A stretch of DNA of 64,000 bases from an uncultured Flavobacteriaceae bacterium (lineage in GTDB: Bacteria; Bacteroidota; Bacteroidia; Flavobacteriales; Flavobacteriaceae), in contig CAJQLB010000004.1 of assembly GCA_905479065.1 (NCBI GenBank), forward strand, positions 1 through 64,000, in the 5' to 3' direction. The notes beneath the pieces are model-generated. The model worked only from the letters and a program-made list of their open reading frames with translations, searched no databases and was not told where the DNA came from. Positions 593 through 41,693 of this stretch are shown one piece after another (the first letter of the stretch is position 1; every line of letters starts with the position of its first letter). The position numbers were made by a program, and so were the translations under genes.

Positions 593-2854
593 ATGTTTTT
601 TTCTGCGCCAAAAAACAAGAGAATATTCCCCTCTATACTATTATTCATAATAGGGGTTTTTGGAATAATCTCCTCTGGATTTTCACAAACTGTTTTATCT
701 GAGGATAATTTTGAATCCAATTTTGGAAATTGGAATGATGGTGGAAATGATGTCCACAGAATGAATGAAAGTTCTATAATCAACTTATCTGATATTGACA
801 CCTATGAATGTGTAGATAACTTATCAGGAAAGGTTGTTAGACTTCGTGACAACAGTGACTCAAATTCTTCTTTAATTTCTAATAAATTTGATTTTTCAAA
901 TTTTAATTCTGTTGCCGTTAGCTATAACTTTTTTGTTGCAAGCATGGAGAACGGAAATGAAGATTGGTTTTTAGAACTCAGCTCTGATAATGGTAATAAT
1001 TGGACCACTATAAAACAGTACGTTAAAGAAATTGATTTCAACAATAATGATTGTGGCTCTGAAAATTTTGGAGTCAAAGAAATAGTCACCTTTAACGCTA
1101 ACAATTATGTATTTAATACTAAAAATAAATTGCGTTTAAGATGTGATGCAAGTAGCAACAATGATTACGTATTTATAGATAATTTAACTGTGACAGGATA
1201 TGAAGATAGTGATACTAATGATTGGTTGGGTTATTCATTTGATTTTGTAACAGAGGCTTCACGATGGTCTAAAAGTGAAGTGCCAAATGCCGATTCTAAC
1301 ATTCGAATTCCATCAGATAAAAAGATTAGAATTAGAGATGACAGAGAATTTAATAATGTTACTATTTCAAGTGATGGAAACTTAACTATTAACTTAGATG
1401 GATCATTGACCGTTCAAAACGATATTGTGAGTGCAGGAATATTTAAATGCTATTCAAATGACGACGAATTTGGAAGTTTAATAGTTAATGGGACTGTGGA
1501 TGGTGTTCTGAACTATCATAGATGGGTTAATAATTGGGAGCCAAATGAAAATGGTAATGACATCATTTCACCTCCTGTTTCAGGTCAAACTTGGAGTAGC
1601 TTTTTAACAGAAAACACTCTGAGTAATGGCACACATCGTATTTATAACAATGGAACACTTTACGCCTTCTATAATTATAATAACGGCTATTATGGCTGGT
1701 CTGACCCCTATTCTAATACCACAGATATAACTCTAGATGTGAGTCAAGGCTATCGTGTTTCTACAGCACAAAATGATAGTCGAACTGTAAAATTTACAGG
1801 TAATGTAGAAACAGGTAATGTCTCTGTGAATTTAAGAAATGTACAAACTCGTTGGAATGTGGTTGGAAATCCTTACCCATCATATGTAAGTCTCAGTGAT
1901 TTTCTTACTGAAAACATAGAAGTTCTTGACGAAAATTATGCGGCTGTTTATGGATATAATGGCATCAATGGAACAGATGGCTGGTCTTATTATAACCTAA
2001 CCAATGCAATTATTAATAATGTAACAATCGCACCAGGACAAGGATTTTATCTAGCTGCTAAATCTGATAATGTAACCGTTACCTTTACGCCTGATATGAG
2101 AACCATCGTTGGAGGTGATGACTTTCTGCAAGATGGACGCTCAACCTCTGACGTGAGTTTCCACAAATTAAGACTTAGTCTTGAAAATGGCAGCCAAATA
2201 AGACACACTGAACTCTACTTCTTAGAAAATAATAACGTGTCTGAAGGATTTGATTCAGGTTACGATACTAATATTTTTGACAGTGGTGACAATTATAACC
2301 TTTATTCTAAATTAGTCACTGATAGCACTGACGAAAAATTAGCCATACAAACACTGCCTCTAGACAATGTCTCTCAAAGTATTGTCCCAATAGGAGTTGA
2401 AGCAGTAACAGGGCAACAAATCACCTTTAGCATTGACGATATAGTCATACCTGATGACGTGGTCATTTACTTGGAAGATCGTGACAAAGATACTTGGACG
2501 CTCTTAAATGATATGACTTCTTACATCGTTGATGTCAATGAAACTATCTCTGGTACTGGACGTTTCTTCTTACACTTTGAGCCTAATGATGCCTTGTCAA
2601 ACAAGGGCATAAATCTCAATGAAATAAGTATTAAAGCTATTCATAACACCAAGCAAATCATCATCTCTGGACAACTAGCTGAAGATACCAACGTCACTAT
2701 TTATGATATCAATGGAAAAACAATCTTAAAAACAACCATTGATGCTTATAACACTACCAACCGAATTGATGTCAAAAACTTAATCACAGGTATCTATTTA
2801 GTGCAATTAAACAACAACTCGCAAACTGTCTCCAAACAAATACTTGTTAAGTAA
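593..2854 (+). CDS. Type IX secretion cargo protein, 753 aa, type A sorting domain
   Basis: A large surface or secreted protein of unknown activity. The N-terminus has a basic stretch and a hydrophobic signal segment (about residues 12-32) ending near GFSQ. A discoidin/jelly-roll-like beta region follows (about 35-200, with FELSSDNG-type and VFIDNLTVTGYE-type strands). A long beta-rich central part contains a WNVVGNPYPSYV motif often seen in flavobacterial surface proteins. The last ~85 residues form a type A sorting domain ending in KQILVK. No catalytic motif was recognised. It is followed by its own terminator. The preceding gene ends in the same domain, so the two are tandem paralogues at least at their 3' ends. 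Function could be adhesion or polysaccharide binding, but that is a guess. Confidence 0.88.
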   Translation: MFFSAPKNKRIFPSILLFIIGVFGIISSGFSQTVLSEDNFESNFGNWNDGGNDVHRMNESSIINLSDIDTYECVDNLSGKVVRLRDNSDSNSSLISNKFDFSNFNSVAVSYNFFVASMENGNEDWFLELSSDNGNNWTTIKQYVKEIDFNNNDCGSENFGVKEIVTFNANNYVFNTKNKLRLRCDASSNNDYVFIDNLTVTGYEDSDTNDWLGYSFDFVTEASRWSKSEVPNADSNIRIPSDKKIRIRDDREFNNVTISSDGNLTINLDGSLTVQNDIVSAGIFKCYSNDDEFGSLIVNGTVDGVLNYHRWVNNWEPNENGNDIISPPVSGQTWSSFLTENTLSNGTHRIYNNGTLYAFYNYNNGYYGWSDPYSNTTDITLDVSQGYRVSTAQNDSRTVKFTGNVETGNVSVNLRNVQTRWNVVGNPYPSYVSLSDFLTENIEVLDENYAAVYGYNGINGTDGWSYYNLTNAIINNVTIAPGQGFYLAAKSDNVTVTFTPDMRTIVGGDDFLQDGRSTSDVSFHKLRLSLENGSQIRHTELYFLENNNVSEGFDSGYDTNIFDSGDNYNLYSKLVTDSTDEKLAIQTLPLDNVSQSIVPIGVEAVTGQQITFSIDDIVIPDDVVIYLEDRDKDTWTLLNDMTSYIVDVNETISGTGRFFLHFEPNDALSNKGINLNEISIKAIHNTKQIIISGQLAEDTNVTIYDINGKTILKTTIDAYNTTNRIDVKNLITGIYLVQLNNNSQTVSKQILVK
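2544..2854 (+). repeat. Second copy of a 311-bp direct repeat (first copy 1-311)
   Basis: Bases 2544-2854 match 1-311 with only six substitutions and no gaps, about 98 percent identity. All six are in third codon positions and are silent. Identity stops at the stop codons: the 3' flanks differ. The true 5' limit of the repeat cannot be seen because copy one runs off the window. Confidence 0.95.
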
Positions 2855-2919: not shown

Positions 2920-4677
2920 TTAATGATTCAATTGGGAAATATAAGTAGAATCTTTCCAAACAACCCTTCCTAAATTTGTCCAAGGGATGCTGCGACTTTT
3001 TTGATACCTGTCTTTTTCCCAGTTAAAATACATTCTCACTTTTTTGACATAGACATTAAAATTAGCACTGTCTAAATCAATGTCGTTGTTAACACTCCAA
3101 AAAGCCGTAAAATCTCTAACGTAATTATTTAATTGTAGGCTATCAAGAACTCCATCTCGATTTGAATAAAAACTTCGTGTTCGACAAAGGCCTTTTTTAT
3201 AAGACCCTACGGTTCCATTTTCTAAAGTTAATGGTAACCACTTTTCATTAGATTCATCAACATAACTAATCCCAACACTGAAAATTTTTAAATTGGAATT
3301 CATATAATCATAGGTAAAAACATTATGCCGCGTTACTCCAAAAAAAGCTCTAGCTAATCCTTTAATTTGGATATTTGATTCTGGCAAATGTATCTTTCTT
3401 GCAAAATTTGTATCTAATAAAGCGTGCCCCTGTAAGATTACAAACAACAATAATATTGATGCAATAGTCTTAATTTTATAAGATTTTAAATAGGCTTCAT
3501 TATCATCATTGGTAGATTTAATTTTAAAGCTAAATATCAACTTTAATATATTTACAATAATAGCTCTAATTCTAGAAATCCCAATGACTAAGACAAAAGG
3601 CATGCAAAAGGGAATTCTTTTAAAAAGATAAGGCATGATTTGCTTGTAATCGTGAATGTAACTATCAGATACTTTTATATAAATCATTTTACCCTTTACA
3701 GATTTGTTAACCATTAATAGTGTCTTATCACCAAATTTACAGTCAAATGCGTTTAAAACATCAATGCTTAAAAGCAGTTGATACAATTGTTCTGACCAAC
3801 GATAACCTGCCACAACAAATACAGTGGTTTTATGACGATATTGACATTTTAATTTTAAAAATGACCAAAATGAAAATGGTATTAATAAGATATATAAGCT
3901 AAGGAAGGTGAGTTGAAAATAAGTTATTGAAAAACAAAAGAGAATCCCCATATGAAACAACACGCCTACAACAAGCATAATGACTCTAGTACCTCTTCTA
4001 AAACACAAAAAAAGAAAAAGTGTTTCAAAAATTAGTGACAAGTATGTCAATCCTTGAGTCAAAATTTTATTATTCAATAAAAAACTAAAATTATCTCGAG
4101 CAAATTCTGAAGGAATTGAGAAAAATGTCCAAATAGCCATGCCATTTGCCCAATAATCAACAAATAATTTATCAAAAATTGAACTAAAATACATCAAGCC
4201 AAGGGACATAAATACGAGACTGTAATAATTTAAAACAGAAACATTTGATGACCTTATGTTATTTATAGGTGATTGAATTTTAATAATAACTGCATCGATT
4301 GAATAAACCCTCGCAACAGAAATAAACATTAGCAGAAAATTAATGGTTACCATAATATTAAACACATGATTCCCAAAATTATTAATGGTTGCTATAAAGA
4401 CCACAGATAAGACATAATTAATGATGGTCGCAATACGCGTGAATAATCCCATGATAATGTGCCAAATCACAATGAGCCATAGTATTAACACGTACTTATA
4501 ATCAATATTCGAAAAACGTAAATAGGGAATTTCATCAAATATTAAATGCCGATATTTTAATAATTCTAAAACAACACAAAATAAAATACATCCATAAATC
4601 ATGCGAAATATGGCTAAACCTGTCGCATCTACTTTTTTGTTGTAAAATTTTTCTATTGTCTTTAAATATCGCACCAA
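2920..4677 (-). CDS. HTTM-domain membrane protein with a degenerate DCC/DUF393-like part, 585 aa
   Basis: Residues ~11-275 are strongly hydrophobic with several membrane helices and match the HTTM pattern of vitamin-K-dependent gamma-carboxylase relatives: an N-terminal TGLAIFRMIYG motif and FDKLFVDYWANG, whose Lys170 aligns with the catalytic-base lysine of human gamma-carboxylase. Residues ~285-380 resemble a DCC1/DUF393 thiol-oxidoreductase domain (SIDVLNAF and a late RIPFCMPFVLVIG segment), but the CxxC site reads AGYRWSE, so no redox pair remains. One more helix (~402-420) and a soluble C-terminal domain follow. The start is uncertain: TTG at 4677 or GTG at 4674, with no ATG nearby. It is divergent from the peptide-kinase operon, 215 bp away, and may be linked to it. 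The substrate is unknown. Confidence 0.75.
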   Translation of the reverse strand: MVRYLKTIEKFYNKKVDATGLAIFRMIYGCILFCVVLELLKYRHLIFDEIPYLRFSNIDYKYVLILWLIVIWHIIMGLFTRIATIINYVLSVVFIATINNFGNHVFNIMVTINFLLMFISVARVYSIDAVIIKIQSPINNIRSSNVSVLNYYSLVFMSLGLMYFSSIFDKLFVDYWANGMAIWTFFSIPSEFARDNFSFLLNNKILTQGLTYLSLIFETLFLFLCFRRGTRVIMLVVGVLFHMGILFCFSITYFQLTFLSLYILLIPFSFWSFLKLKCQYRHKTTVFVVAGYRWSEQLYQLLLSIDVLNAFDCKFGDKTLLMVNKSVKGKMIYIKVSDSYIHDYKQIMPYLFKRIPFCMPFVLVIGISRIRAIIVNILKLIFSFKIKSTNDDNEAYLKSYKIKTIASILLLFVILQGHALLDTNFARKIHLPESNIQIKGLARAFFGVTRHNVFTYDYMNSNLKIFSVGISYVDESNEKWLPLTLENGTVGSYKKGLCRTRSFYSNRDGVLDSLQLNNYVRDFTAFWSVNNDIDLDSANFNVYVKKVRMYFNWEKDRYQKSRSIPWTNLGRVVWKDSTYISQLNH

Positions 4678-4892: not shown

Positions 4893-5051
4893 TTGAGAAA
4901 AAAAAATAAGAATAAAATAACACGTAAAGAAGCTTTAAAGACCATGGGTAAATATGCAGCGATGACGGCAGTTGGAACCTTCATGATCTTAAATCCCAAC
5001 CGAACGCATGCAAATAGTGCCGTTGGTGGCGGAGATAATCCAATTTCTTAA
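4893..5051 (+). CDS. Small exported peptide, 52 aa, candidate kinase substrate
   Basis: The frame runs from TTG (4893) to TAA (5049-5051) and is closed upstream by a stop at 4872. The peptide has a very basic start, a Tat-like or leader-like ITRKEALKTMG segment, a short hydrophobic stretch YAAMTAVGTFMIL (residues 23-35), then NPNRTHA and a tail NSAVGGGDNPIS. A signal-peptidase-like cut after THA would free a 12-residue peptide. The last residue is Ser. The next gene, an HprK-like kinase, starts only 22 bp later, and HprK-like kinases of lasso-peptide clusters phosphorylate a C-terminal Ser of the precursor. An ATG at 4944 would give only 35 residues and cut off the basic leader. No family was recognised with certainty. 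Confidence 0.7.
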   Translation: MRKKNKNKITRKEALKTMGKYAAMTAVGTFMILNPNRTHANSAVGGGDNPIS

Positions 5052-5073
5052 TTAAAAAACTATCAGTTTAAAG

Positions 5074-6177
5074 GTGTCAGAAACATATATCGATGACTAC
5101 ATTTTAGTTTATTTCAATAATTCAAACAGTTATCTAATTTTAGATACTAAAACCTATCCTTTTTACAAAACCTTTAAACTAAATAAAAAAAAGCATGAAT
5201 ACATTGACGCTTTAGATAAAAGTTATCCAATAAATCTCAAAACTTCTTTTTTTAATACGTTTACAGACCTATCAAAAAAAACAAATACTTCTGATCCTTT
5301 TCTTGTTAATAATGACATTGAAATCATCTCAAATAATTCCAAATTTATACAAGTATTTGACCAAGCACTACAAATTAGATATGATTCAATAAAAGCTTTG
5401 AATACTGTTTATGAAAAATTTAGTCACTTAGAAACAATATCTAAACATTGTGACGATACAATAATAGTCTCTTATGATAATTTCGGCTATTCTTTAAAAA
5501 ACAAAAACAATACAGCGTGGCATTGGGATGATAAGAATATCCATTTGTTTCAAGGAAAATTTACTTTTGAACTTTTAAATTGCATACACAATAAAAAAGA
5601 ACCTGAATGGCTTGGAACTTTTCATGCCTCAACTGTTGGTAATGGTAAGGAAGCCATAATGCTAGTTGGCAACTCGGGTAGTGGTAAAAGCACCCTATCA
5701 TCTTTATTAATGTTCTCTGGTTATGATTTAATTGCTGATGATGTGACTCCCATGCTTGGGGAAAACAATCATATTTATGTGCTTCCAGCTGCAATCTCTG
5801 TTAAAGAAAAATCTTTTGAAGCAATAAAGCCTTTTGTAAAAGATTTTGACAAATTACCTGCTCTTTATGTCAATGAGACAAAAGGCCATCAAAAATTTAT
5901 TCCTCCTAAACCCTTAAAAAATCTTAATCAATTAGACTATCCTTGTCGAAATGTTGTACTTGTTCGTTACAGTCACAAACCAATAAAAACCACCCTCAAA
6001 AAAGGTGATATTAAAATAATTTTAGAAGAACTTATTTCTGAATCATGGCTGTCTCATAGTGAATTACACGCAAAATCTTTTATTAAGTGGCTATCAAAAA
6101 TATCATTTCATGAACTCCGTTATCATCATAGTAATGAAGCTATTTCAGTATTTAACAACTTAATCCCTTTAGTGTAA
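5074..6177 (+). CDS. HprK-like Ser kinase, 367 aa, of RiPP-cluster type
   Basis: The C-terminal half has the HPr kinase/phosphorylase core. There is a His (H184) in FHAS fifteen residues before the P-loop, a Walker A GNSGSGKST (199-207), and an acidic pair in LIADDV (D222, D223), the same layout as in HprK. The N-terminal ~170 residues are not recognised. Real HprK acts on HPr of the sugar phosphotransferase system, but here the gene sits between a tiny exported peptide and a nucleotidyltransferase, as kinases of paeninodin-type lasso clusters do. Peptide phosphorylation is therefore the likelier job. The start is GTG 5074, as no upstream ATG is in frame. The capsule-type phosphatase residues of true HprK were not checked in detail. 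Function is inferred. Confidence 0.78.
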   Translation: MSETYIDDYILVYFNNSNSYLILDTKTYPFYKTFKLNKKKHEYIDALDKSYPINLKTSFFNTFTDLSKKTNTSDPFLVNNDIEIISNNSKFIQVFDQALQIRYDSIKALNTVYEKFSHLETISKHCDDTIIVSYDNFGYSLKNKNNTAWHWDDKNIHLFQGKFTFELLNCIHNKKEPEWLGTFHASTVGNGKEAIMLVGNSGSGKSTLSSLLMFSGYDLIADDVTPMLGENNHIYVLPAAISVKEKSFEAIKPFVKDFDKLPALYVNETKGHQKFIPPKPLKNLNQLDYPCRNVVLVRYSHKPIKTTLKKGDIKIILEELISESWLSHSELHAKSFIKWLSKISFHELRYHHSNEAISVFNNLIPLV

Positions 6178-6221
6178 CTACTTAGAGCCTATTTATTATA
6201 TTTACTTTAAATATAAGGTCA

Positions 6222-7298
6222 TTGTTTTCATACGACACAATTCAGCATATTGCAGCCATTTTAAAGTTTGAGAATAATCAAACCTATCTCAAATCTATTT
6301 TAGGAAATTACCATGAAACTGATTGGGAAAAGCTTGTCAAAATTGGAAGTCATCACTTGGTACTCCCACCTATTTATTGTCGTCTAAAACAGAAAAAATT
6401 ATTAGATATTTTACCGAAAGATTTAAATAATTATCTCACTGAATTAACTCAGATAAATAGAAATAGAAACAATGCTGTTTTTGGACAAGTTAAAGAATTA
6501 AGTTCTATACTAAGACAACAAAATATTGAGCACGTTTTTCTAAAAGGTATGGCACTTATATCTGCAAACTACTTTGAAGACATAGGTGAACGCATGATTG
6601 GAGATATTGATATTCTTGTAAAAGAATCCCAATTAAAAGAGGCTGCTTCCTTACTTCTCAGAAACAATTATGAATATAAAACCAGTACTTTTGGAGAAAA
6701 GTATTTTGAGTATCACCATGATTTAAGTTTAATCTCAAAAGATGGGGGGCTCGCTCCAGTTGAGTTGCATCGACATATTCTTCACTCACATTATGACAAA
6801 TTTCTAATCAGTCAAAATGTCTTAGAAAATAAAGAAAATTATCACAATATTTTTATTCCATCAAAATATCATATCCTCGAGAATATCATACTTAATTTTG
6901 AAATTAATGACTACGGGCACATATACAATACAATAGGAATACGGAATATGTATGACTACATTTGTTCTACAAACAGTATTTCTCAAAATATTTTAGAATC
7001 ACTTTTTAAGACAAGTAAATTTCATGCCTTATTTATAAAAAAAACTCATTTTTACTTCAATAATTTTAAAATTTTCGAGCTAAAAAATAATCATAAATTT
7101 ATATTTTACTTATTTGGTATCGCTCAAAAAAAGGTTTTCTTTAAAAATATTCGAAATTATTGGGCAAAATCAAGAATTCTGATGAACATTGTCTCTATTC
7201 GAGTTAAACTATTAATATTAAATGCCAATTACAGAAAAGAGGTATGGAAAGACAGAAATAGGGTAACCAAACTCTTTTTATTCAAACTATTTAAATAA
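6222..7298 (+). CDS. Nucleotidyltransferase family protein (NTP_transf_5 type), 358 aa
   Basis: The polymerase-beta-like core shows FLKGMAL (K108, G109) followed by GERMIGDIDILV, in which R124, D128 and D130 fit the family pattern LKG...R..DIDLLV with its paired metal-binding acids. The flanking helices are rich in Lys, Asn and Ile. The start is a TTG at 6222; no ATG lies nearby in frame. It begins 44 bp after the kinase stop codon and most likely shares its transcript. This family recurs beside HprK-like kinases in lasso-peptide clusters, where its chemistry is not settled. Here it may add a nucleotide or further phosphate to the upstream peptide, which is inference. No cyclase, protease or transporter gene follows. 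Confidence 0.75.
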   Translation: MFSYDTIQHIAAILKFENNQTYLKSILGNYHETDWEKLVKIGSHHLVLPPIYCRLKQKKLLDILPKDLNNYLTELTQINRNRNNAVFGQVKELSSILRQQNIEHVFLKGMALISANYFEDIGERMIGDIDILVKESQLKEAASLLLRNNYEYKTSTFGEKYFEYHHDLSLISKDGGLAPVELHRHILHSHYDKFLISQNVLENKENYHNIFIPSKYHILENIILNFEINDYGHIYNTIGIRNMYDYICSTNSISQNILESLFKTSKFHALFIKKTHFYFNNFKIFELKNNHKFIFYLFGIAQKKVFFKNIRNYWAKSRILMNIVSIRVKLLILNANYRKEVWKDRNRVTKLFLFKLFK

Positions 7299-7374: not shown

Positions 7375-8166
7375 CTATTTATCTTTATTGTTTTTTGTTT
7401 TTTGTTTTTTGTTTTTTGTTTTTTGTTTTAATGTACCGTTTTTAGAAATATTCTCATTCTCTTGTTGCTTTGTTTCTTGATTGTTCTTATTGGGCTGAAC
7501 TTTTACAGAACTTTTCTTTTTATTTGAGGAAGCTTTTCGAGGTTTTCTTTTGTTACTGCGTTTCTTTTTCTTTGCAATTGGTACCGTGTAGTAGCGATAA
7601 ATGAGCCCAATATTATATTGATAAAAATCGCCAACATATTTCACCTCATTACGAAAACCCTTGTTTGCAATGGCTTGTACTGACACTCCAAAAAATTGTG
7701 ACACCCAATAATTAGCACCAAACGTAACGTTAAATGTTAAAGCACCACCTTCAGCGACATAATGATAACCTGCTCCTAAACCGCCATATAGATCCAAATT
7801 AGTGTCTTCATTATAGAAAATATATTTATCAAAATAGTACTTACCTGTGACGTTTACAGCAAAAAAGTCAAACAATGGATAAACATAACCGTCACCATCC
7901 TCATTTAATCGCTTTAACTCAAAGACATTACTTGTTGTCATTATTGAGAATGACATATCTTCACTAAATCTCCCCTCCAATTCAATGAAATAAGGATTAC
8001 TAAATTCAAATTGATCAACATCCCAAAATATATTGAATCCGTTGCTATTGTCAATAGCATTAAGGCCTCCACTAAATTTTATATAACTTGGTTCTTGAGC
8101 ACATAATACTTGTAAATTGCAAAATAAAATAATAACAAATAAGCCGGGGGATTTCAAGAATCTCAT
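7375..8166 (-). CDS. Outer-membrane beta-barrel protein with Lys-rich tail, 263 aa
   Basis: Residues 1-23 are a signal peptide ending LCAQ. Residues ~24-190 alternate as amphipathic beta strands rich in Tyr, Phe and Gly (for example LDLYGGLGAGYHYVAEGG and YQYNIGLIYRYY), typical of small 8-strand barrels of the OmpA/OmpW kind. From about residue 195 the protein is very basic and of low complexity (KKKKRSNKRKPRK and on), ending in two heptapeptide units KQKTKNK encoded by a 7-bp DNA repeat. There is no sorting domain and no peptidoglycan-binding OmpA domain. The tail may bind wall or nucleic acid on the periplasmic side. Function unknown. Confidence 0.75.
   Translation of the reverse strand: MRFLKSPGLFVIILFCNLQVLCAQEPSYIKFSGGLNAIDNSNGFNIFWDVDQFEFSNPYFIELEGRFSEDMSFSIMTTSNVFELKRLNEDGDGYVYPLFDFFAVNVTGKYYFDKYIFYNEDTNLDLYGGLGAGYHYVAEGGALTFNVTFGANYWVSQFFGVSVQAIANKGFRNEVKYVGDFYQYNIGLIYRYYTVPIAKKKKRSNKRKPRKASSNKKKSSVKVQPNKNNQETKQQENENISKNGTLKQKTKNKKQKTKNNKDK
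7390..7429 (-). repeat. Heptanucleotide tandem repeat inside the C-terminal coding region
   Basis: On the plus strand the unit GTTTTTT occurs five full times plus GTTTT, with no mismatch. The unit is not a multiple of three, so gain or loss of one copy shifts the frame of the last codons of the barrel protein. The present frame ends NKDK then TAG. One shifted frame stops at once at a TAA; the other runs about ten codons further to a TGA. Confidence 0.95.
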
Positions 8167-40720: not shown

Positions 40721-41149
40721 TCAATTCTTCAACTTGTTGTAGTAAAAAGCTGGTAACAAAATAATTAGAATCACAGGTTGAATTAAAAATCTTCTCATAT
40801 TAAAGAATAAATAATAATCTTCTTGTTTTGGATTAACCACAAAATAAATAAAAGTAATTACTAGAAAACAATATGATATTACATAAATTAAACTTGCAAA
40901 TTTTACAATCCCTTTATCATTCCACACAATGTAAATAATGACCAATGAAATCAATGAGTTTAACATGTATCGAAGGGTTGTAAATAAGACCAACTTGAAT
41001 GTCTCTCGACGTGGTGAATCAATATATAAGTAATCATTTTTAAAAAAATTTAGATAAGGGTCATAAAATAAATGTTCTTCAAAAAATCTTATTAGAATTA
41101 AACACCCAACACCCAACACTATGAAAAAAAATTTTCTTGTTTTACTCAT
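40721..41149 (-). CDS. Exosortase F-associated membrane protein, 142 aa
   Basis: Four membrane helices with short loops: FFFIVLGVGCLILIRFFEE, LVLFTTLRYMLNSLISLVIIYI, ASLIYVISYCFLVITFIYFVV and FLIQPVILIILLPAFYYNK. The size, composition and position right after xrtF match the exosortase F-system-associated proteins of Flavobacteriia. It overlaps the end of xrtF by 8 bp. Role unknown; it may act with the transpeptidase or help a substrate in the membrane. Confidence 0.8.
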   Translation of the reverse strand: MSKTRKFFFIVLGVGCLILIRFFEEHLFYDPYLNFFKNDYLYIDSPRRETFKLVLFTTLRYMLNSLISLVIIYIVWNDKGIVKFASLIYVISYCFLVITFIYFVVNPKQEDYYLFFNMRRFLIQPVILIILLPAFYYNKLKN

Positions 41150-41693
41150 TTCTCTTATTAATCATATTTAATCTTCTCACCCACTTAACCCATAATAAAA
41201 ACACCATTCCATAAATAATTAGTGGAAAGACTATGGTATGTAAAATTTCATGATATGCAGGATAGTGATAGATGGCCAATGTTATGAGGACTATTCTTAA
41301 TAGATTCATAGAATAAATTAAAATGCTTCCAGCTATAATAAACATCAATGTCGATTGAATGTTATCTGCAAACGCAACAATGAACGAGGTGAATAAAATC
41401 AAAATACTTATCGAATTACAACCCTCAACAATTCTTGCTATATAAGTACCTTCTATGATGAGTTTAAGAGAAGCCTCTGATTCATGTGGAACAATACTTG
41501 ATTGATACCCCAACGAATTAATCAAGTTATCACAATGTTGAGCTACTAAATTAGTTGCGTAATCAGGAAAATATCGAAACCCTGTTGAAAACTCTAAATA
41601 ATATTTGTAAGCAATAGACAACAATGCATATGTGAATAAAAATAGCACAATGAATCTAATAACTAACTTGTATTTTGCGAAATATATTCCCAT
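41142..41693 (-). CDS. xrtF: Exosortase family protein XrtF
   Basis: 183 residues with several membrane helices. The exosortase triad is present: Cys92 in IVEGCNSISI, Arg133 in SMNLLRIVL and His152 in EILHTIVFP. Exosortases cut and sort proteins with a C-terminal motif-helix-basic tag. Here the family is XrtF, found in Flavobacteriia; no cognate tagged protein is visible in the window. It diverges from the GAF gene and is coupled to the associated membrane protein downstream. Confidence 0.9.
   Translation of the reverse strand: MGIYFAKYKLVIRFIVLFLFTYALLSIAYKYYLEFSTGFRYFPDYATNLVAQHCDNLINSLGYQSSIVPHESEASLKLIIEGTYIARIVEGCNSISILILFTSFIVAFADNIQSTLMFIIAGSILIYSMNLLRIVLITLAIYHYPAYHEILHTIVFPLIIYGMVFLLWVKWVRRLNMINKRNE

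Follow-up and report, generated by a model that had tools for sequence, protein, structure and literature searches.

A flavobacterial unit of a small peptide, an HprK-like kinase and a nucleotidyltransferase co-inherited with a family of T9SS surface proteins

Introduction

An HprK-like kinase gene and a nucleotidyltransferase gene directly follow a reading frame of only 52 codons at a contig end of an uncultured Flavobacteriaceae bacterium (GenBank assembly GCA_905479065.1, 2.4 Mb; contig CAJQLB010000004.1), and the locus raises the question of whether the small frame is a gene, which residue of its product the kinase may act on and with what the product may cooperate. A preliminary description proposed that the frame may encode an exported peptide modified directly at its C-terminal Ser, in a system stripped of the cyclase, leader protease and exporter of lasso-peptide clusters. 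We followed up this proposal in the window, which here means the whole stretch of 64,000 nucleotides analysed, representing one contig end, and in the genomes of other flavobacteria.

Two kinds of system offer precedents. In lasso-peptide clusters, the His-Lys-Asp-Asp residues of the kinases have been shown to be essential, and PsmN is needed for the attachment of hexoses to phospho-Ser in pseudomycoidin (PMC9266682). The second is the system of linear polyphosphorylated peptides (LPP; LppA/K/B/S/D/N) of Paenibacillus alginolyticus (Bacillota), published in May 2026. There, LppK places up to four phosphates on core Ser3, right after a signal-peptidase-like cleavage, and the authors of the study describe the roles of LppN and of the final peptide as unknown (PMC13381572).

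Results

The small frame is a gene in a conserved unit

The three genes at the centre of the question are as follows.

4893..5051, + strand: small peptide gene, 52 aa, TTG start, ending in GGGDNPIS (profile, alignment, pN/pS)
5074..6177, + strand: HprK-like kinase, 367 aa, GTG start (sequence match, alignment, AlphaFold)
6222..7298, + strand: NTP_transf_5 nucleotidyltransferase, 358 aa, TTG start (PF14907, E=2e-33)

The frames, the TTG start of the peptide, the spacings (22 bp from peptide to kinase and 44 bp from kinase to nucleotidyltransferase) and the residues H184, Walker A 199-207 and D222/D223 of the kinase and D128/D130 of the nucleotidyltransferase were all found where the preliminary description had placed them. 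The 52-codon frame is a real gene, because a profile of the peptide finds relatives beside the same kinase–nucleotidyltransferase pair in other genera and because its pN/pS is 0.056 (602 close pairs). The alignment revealed a leader, ITRKEAxxxMGKYAxxTAxGTFxxLNP (also given as ITRKEAxKKMGKYAALTAxGTFLILNP), followed by a short tail, for example SSPPDPGGNPFD, whose length ranges from about 8 to 50 residues among 112 distinct peptides. The window's own genome holds another copy of the peptide gene, which has decayed (G000:C15:151028-151168, minus strand; locus L114).

When named genomes were scanned with only the window kinase, no relative was returned; the peptide alignment succeeded as the query and matched 178 places, of which 78 loci were read. 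The peptide, kinase and nucleotidyltransferase genes were consecutive on one strand in 67 of these 78 loci, which are not mutually independent and come mostly from draft genomes, and in those 67 the gap from peptide to kinase was 2-35 bp. The remaining loci were extra T9SS–peptide pairs or contig ends. Thus, the expectation that the small frame would recur beside other kinase–nucleotidyltransferase pairs was borne out. The unit is carried by many marine Flavobacteriaceae, with many cultured species among its bearers, including members of Winogradskyella, Psychroserpens and Gelidibacter.

A kinase search in 300 genomes of the same family yielded 28 convincing genomes, the window's own included, and the small frame was intact directly upstream in 21 of the 28 kinase loci (window included), where its product shares the head and ends in a short tail. 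Among the conserved neighbours of the 28 loci, a lasso cyclase and a leader peptidase were absent, and no SipW-like signal peptidase or MsbA-like exporter family was found. The preliminary description was therefore right to group the peptide, with its export-like leader, the HprK-like kinase and the NTP_transf_5 enzyme into a unit, which proved to be conserved and to have no lasso cyclase, leader protease or exporter among its conserved neighbours, and the identification as a lasso cluster was rejected on the lack of a cyclase or leader protease conserved nearby. About 11 of the 28 loci have polysaccharide genes (UDP-glucose dehydrogenase, GDP-mannose dehydratase, flippase) no more than 9 kb away.

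One further gene could be an accessory of the unit.

7375..8166, - strand: possible accessory gene for a predicted secreted protein, outer-membrane-like by appearance, of uncertain membership (neighbourhood clustering)

Its homologues lie directly downstream of the nucleotidyltransferase gene in about 12 of the 28 loci; here it is on the opposite strand, and a short tandem repeat in the gene adds a Lys-rich tail to its product. Nothing in Pfam matched this protein above the cutoff.

The unit includes a T9SS surface-protein gene

The conserved unit also takes in a gene that the preliminary description had missed.

593..2854, + strand: T9SS-secreted surface protein, 753 aa (Por_Secre_tail PF18962, E=1.5e-9; TIGR04183)
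1475..2623, + strand: domain of about 380 aa in the same protein, immediately ahead of the sorting tail (profile across 301 genomes)

The protein matched both profiles above their cutoffs, TIGR04183 with 35.8 bits against 23, indicating a C-terminal sorting domain. In 65 of the 78 loci, a gene for one of its homologues immediately precedes the peptide gene, so the order T9SS gene, peptide, kinase, nucleotidyltransferase recurs in those 65 loci of other flavobacteria. In the window, a gene for an HTTM-domain membrane protein (PF05090, E=1.6e-10; 2920-4677, minus strand) stands between the T9SS gene and the peptide gene, and it is missing from that position in the compared relatives. The contig start (1-314) repeats the end of the T9SS gene (2544-2857) with 98% identity over 314 bp, which represents either a second tandem T9SS gene running off the contig or an assembly break at a repeat.

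The domain of about 380 residues gave no match above noise in Pfam or NCBIfam, and is, as judged by these profile comparisons, an undescribed domain in a T9SS cargo protein. Its AlphaFold model has a pLDDT of 85.8, and a fold search with it returned no PDB match at E<=0.001. Across the 301 genomes, every one of the 28 kinase genomes had the domain at E<1e-23, as did four more, which are incomplete assemblies or contain a decayed peptide. The next match was in G121, a complete genome, at 8e-23, and six further ones were much weaker. The domain can reach nine copies in a genome that has a single kinase; in G158 and G045, there are six to nine.

Kinase and peptide are inherited together

Of the 301 genomes of the family, 27 had both kinase and peptide, 4 had the peptide only, 1 had the kinase only and 269 had neither (p=3.8e-33, a statistic that ignores the kinship of the genomes). 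The single kinase-only genome is a case of a contig end. The co-occurrence persists where the genes are scattered: kinase, nucleotidyltransferase and peptide are on different contigs in G055 and likewise in G150, and the peptides of G123 lie hundreds of kb from the kinase–nucleotidyltransferase pair. In class-wide samples, kinase and peptide were convincing only in the same three genomes, all of which belong to this family.

In other families of the class, weak HprK-like matches were located within a few kb of PqqD genes (G330:C82, G424:C1 and G454:C82); these may represent lasso or HprK-related-A clusters of other Bacteroidia.

A separate observation concerns an exosortase-like protein (PF09721, E=6.5e-4, below the cutoff) encoded in the window together with a small partner gene (40721-41693, minus strand). 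The pair resembles the XrtF pair of Flavobacterium johnsoniae, the substrates of which are unknown (PMC10936215). The exosortase-like protein (41142-41693) was considered as a processor of the peptide and dropped for want of a link between the two.

The kinase may carry its own leader-binding domain

The catalytic H184, K205, D222 and D223 of the kinase, the second of these within the Walker A segment, were invariant among 26 homologues, and the AlphaFold model (pLDDT 91) matched PDB structures with the PEPCK and HPr kinase folds. The kinase is thus predicted to have the HPr kinase/PEPCK fold with a catalytic His, a P-loop Lys and an Asp-Asp pair. Its best NCBIfam match was HprK_rel_A (TIGR04352), at 54.4 bits and hence far short of the cutoff of 200. 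The nucleotidyltransferase retains D128/D130, E181/H183 and D245 invariantly in an alignment of 24 homologues.

The N-terminal part of the kinase could be a domain of its own.

5074..5289, + strand: putative PqqD/RRE-like N-terminal domain of the kinase (secondary structure order, hhalign)

In the PqqD/RRE fold, three strands are followed by three helices. The first 72 or so residues of the kinase are predicted to run beta-beta-beta-alpha-alpha-alpha in the AlphaFold model. When this segment was compared with 31 PqqD proteins by hhalign, the probability was 88.5% with a diverse alignment and 16% with a narrower one; other blocks of the kinase gave less than 1%. The domain had no Pfam match, and a PDB sequence search with its profile returned no PqqD chain. 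A discrete PqqD protein (PF05402) was found neither in the window's genome nor in nine other kinase genomes, among 60 genomes searched. Taken together, these results make it likely that an RRE-like domain is fused to the kinase.

An internal Ser is the better candidate target

Two serine codons of the peptide gene have to be compared.

5016..5018, + strand: codon of Ser42, the likely phosphorylation target (Ser in all intact peptides of the 112 distinct ones)
5046..5048, + strand: codon of the C-terminal Ser52, the target first proposed (not conserved)

The last residue of the 112 distinct peptides was D in 62, N in 11, G in 10, S in only 8 and E in 6, with others making up the rest, and the C-terminal Ser was thus ruled out as the target family-wide, against the preliminary description. 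Ser42 lies seven residues past the LNP motif and two past an A-x-A-like site (A-x-A-x-Ser), and it was found in every intact peptide while the adjacent residues vary. Its codon is AGT in the window, whereas it is TCN in the other 81 of the 82 peptides of the codon set; therefore, the amino acid outlived a change of codon class. The internal Ser42 is, as far as can be read from the alignment, likely the better target.

The four flagged exceptions are decayed copies. The copy at L113 (G296) carries stops, that at L058 (G152) has a stop directly ahead of the tail, that at L111 (G284) is without a start codon and has Tyr in place of Ser, and in the relic copy of the window's own genome the Ser is still readable beyond a stop. 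L177 was flagged by the script only since its motif is LAP, and the Ser is there. A profile search of G284 and G296, with an estimated completeness of 89 and 92%, found no kinase and no nucleotidyltransferase, and the decay of the peptide in these kinase-less genomes hints, in small number, that the peptide is the substrate.

The leader has the appearance of an export signal

Judged by eye, the leader has a basic TRKEAxK stretch, a weakly hydrophobic core and an A-x-A pattern, the last of which follows the core in most peptides; no NCBIfam Tat or signal model matched the peptide. The putative cleavage site is not fixed, as some peptides have V, T or E at -1. TatC was present in 59 of the 60 genomes, with and without the unit alike, and therefore its co-occurrence says nothing on the export route.

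Discussion

On the basis of the conservation and order of the genes, their co-inheritance, the invariant Ser, the catalytic residues and the predicted fold, we consider it probable that the locus encodes a RiPP-like phosphopeptide system coupled to a T9SS surface-protein family. The kinase would bind the leader of about 40 residues, probably by means of the PqqD/RRE-like domain at its N-terminus, and would phosphorylate the invariant Ser, here Ser42, one or several times; the NTP_transf_5 enzyme could add a further group to this phosphate. The Sec- or Tat-type-looking leader would then direct export and be cut off by a general signal peptidase. The remaining modified tail, about 12 residues long and with the Ser near its start, may act outside the inner membrane with the T9SS proteins carrying the domain of about 380 residues. 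Modification would have to precede export, because the kinase and the nucleotidyltransferase have no visible export signal. We infer phosphorylation, extension, export, cleavage and contact with the T9SS proteins by analogy with the precedents.

An unlikely alternative is that the kinase and the nucleotidyltransferase act on a sugar or lipid of a surface polysaccharide, with the peptide being a separate partner of the T9SS protein, such as a chaperone or regulator. The nearby polysaccharide genes and the extra T9SS–peptide pairs without an adjoining kinase would fit such a division, but three observations favour the peptide as the substrate: its Ser is invariant, it has decayed in kinase-less genomes, and the kinase resembles peptide kinases. 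It is improbable that the peptide stays uncleaved as an inner-membrane subunit whose tail lies outside and aids the T9SS cargo, with a role of the Ser other than phosphorylation: the strongly basic N-terminus and the single hydrophobic stretch after it would suit an anchor, and the gene lies directly behind the T9SS gene, but most sequences have the A-x-A pattern past the core, and the co-inheritance of the kinase and the nucleotidyltransferase would be left without an explanation. Phosphorylation of the last residue, in the manner of paeninodin-type lasso peptides, is highly improbable, with a C-terminal Ser in just 8 of 112 distinct peptides, D the commonest end and tails of such variable length, even though the window peptide does end in Ser and lasso kinases are known to act on a Ser in this position (PMC9266682).

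The phosphopeptide system favoured here closely resembles LPP. Both have an HprK-like kinase and an NTP transferase beside a small precursor gene (in 67 of the 78 loci here), a linear peptide with a conserved N-terminus and a variable tail, polysaccharide loci near and, as the motifs suggest, a Ser right after a signal-peptidase-type site (core AQSNWK in LPP, AQAxS-like here). Membership in LPP was nevertheless rejected: the LPP leader motif is YxxPxVLxHQxIxFETxxS, whereas the flavobacterial leader has the ITRKEA-type motif and looks like a true signal peptide, and the flavobacterial loci are without a discrete RRE, a SipW-like peptidase or an MsbA-like exporter in the conserved neighbourhood, with the RRE-like domain apparently fused to the kinase. 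The flavobacterial system is also Gram-negative and co-inherited with T9SS surface proteins. The paeninodin and pseudomycoidin systems (PadeK/ThcoK/PsmK, PsmN) share a His-Lys-Asp-Asp HprK-like kinase with an adjoining annotated nucleotidyltransferase, but their kinases act on the C-terminal Ser and their product is a lasso, whereas the C-terminal Ser is not conserved here. The unit differs from HprK-related kinase A (TIGR04352) in its score of 54 bits against the 200-bit cutoff and in the lack of a PqqD match in the window's genome. The partner protein has the typical C-terminal sorting tail of T9SS type A cargo, from which it is set apart by a domain found almost only in genomes with the peptide.

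The preliminary description had regarded such a unit as not described; this stands for Flavobacteriaceae within the open-licence literature, but not for the mechanism, as the close LPP system has been published for Bacillota (PMC13381572). What is new here is the Gram-negative setting, the lack of separate RRE, peptidase and exporter genes, the tight co-inheritance with T9SS proteins and the undescribed domain of about 380 residues. The chemistry of HprK-like kinases and nucleotidyltransferases on peptides would, by analogy, be extended to Gram-negatives with a signal-like leader, and the kinase may carry its own leader-binding domain.

Within the phosphopeptide reading, the tail peptide could serve as a surface linker or adaptor, with the nucleotidyltransferase linking a sugar to the phospho-Ser; the domain of about 380 residues would bind this conjugate or be joined to it, and the T9SS proteins would thereby be tied to polysaccharide. 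We regard this extension as speculative and rather unlikely; if true, it would represent a peptide-based surface assembly in which one enzyme pair serves several cargo proteins. More broadly, the co-inheritance with one secreted surface-protein family provides a first genetic lead to the function of the phosphopeptide, and the presence of the unit in cultured species makes its purpose directly testable.
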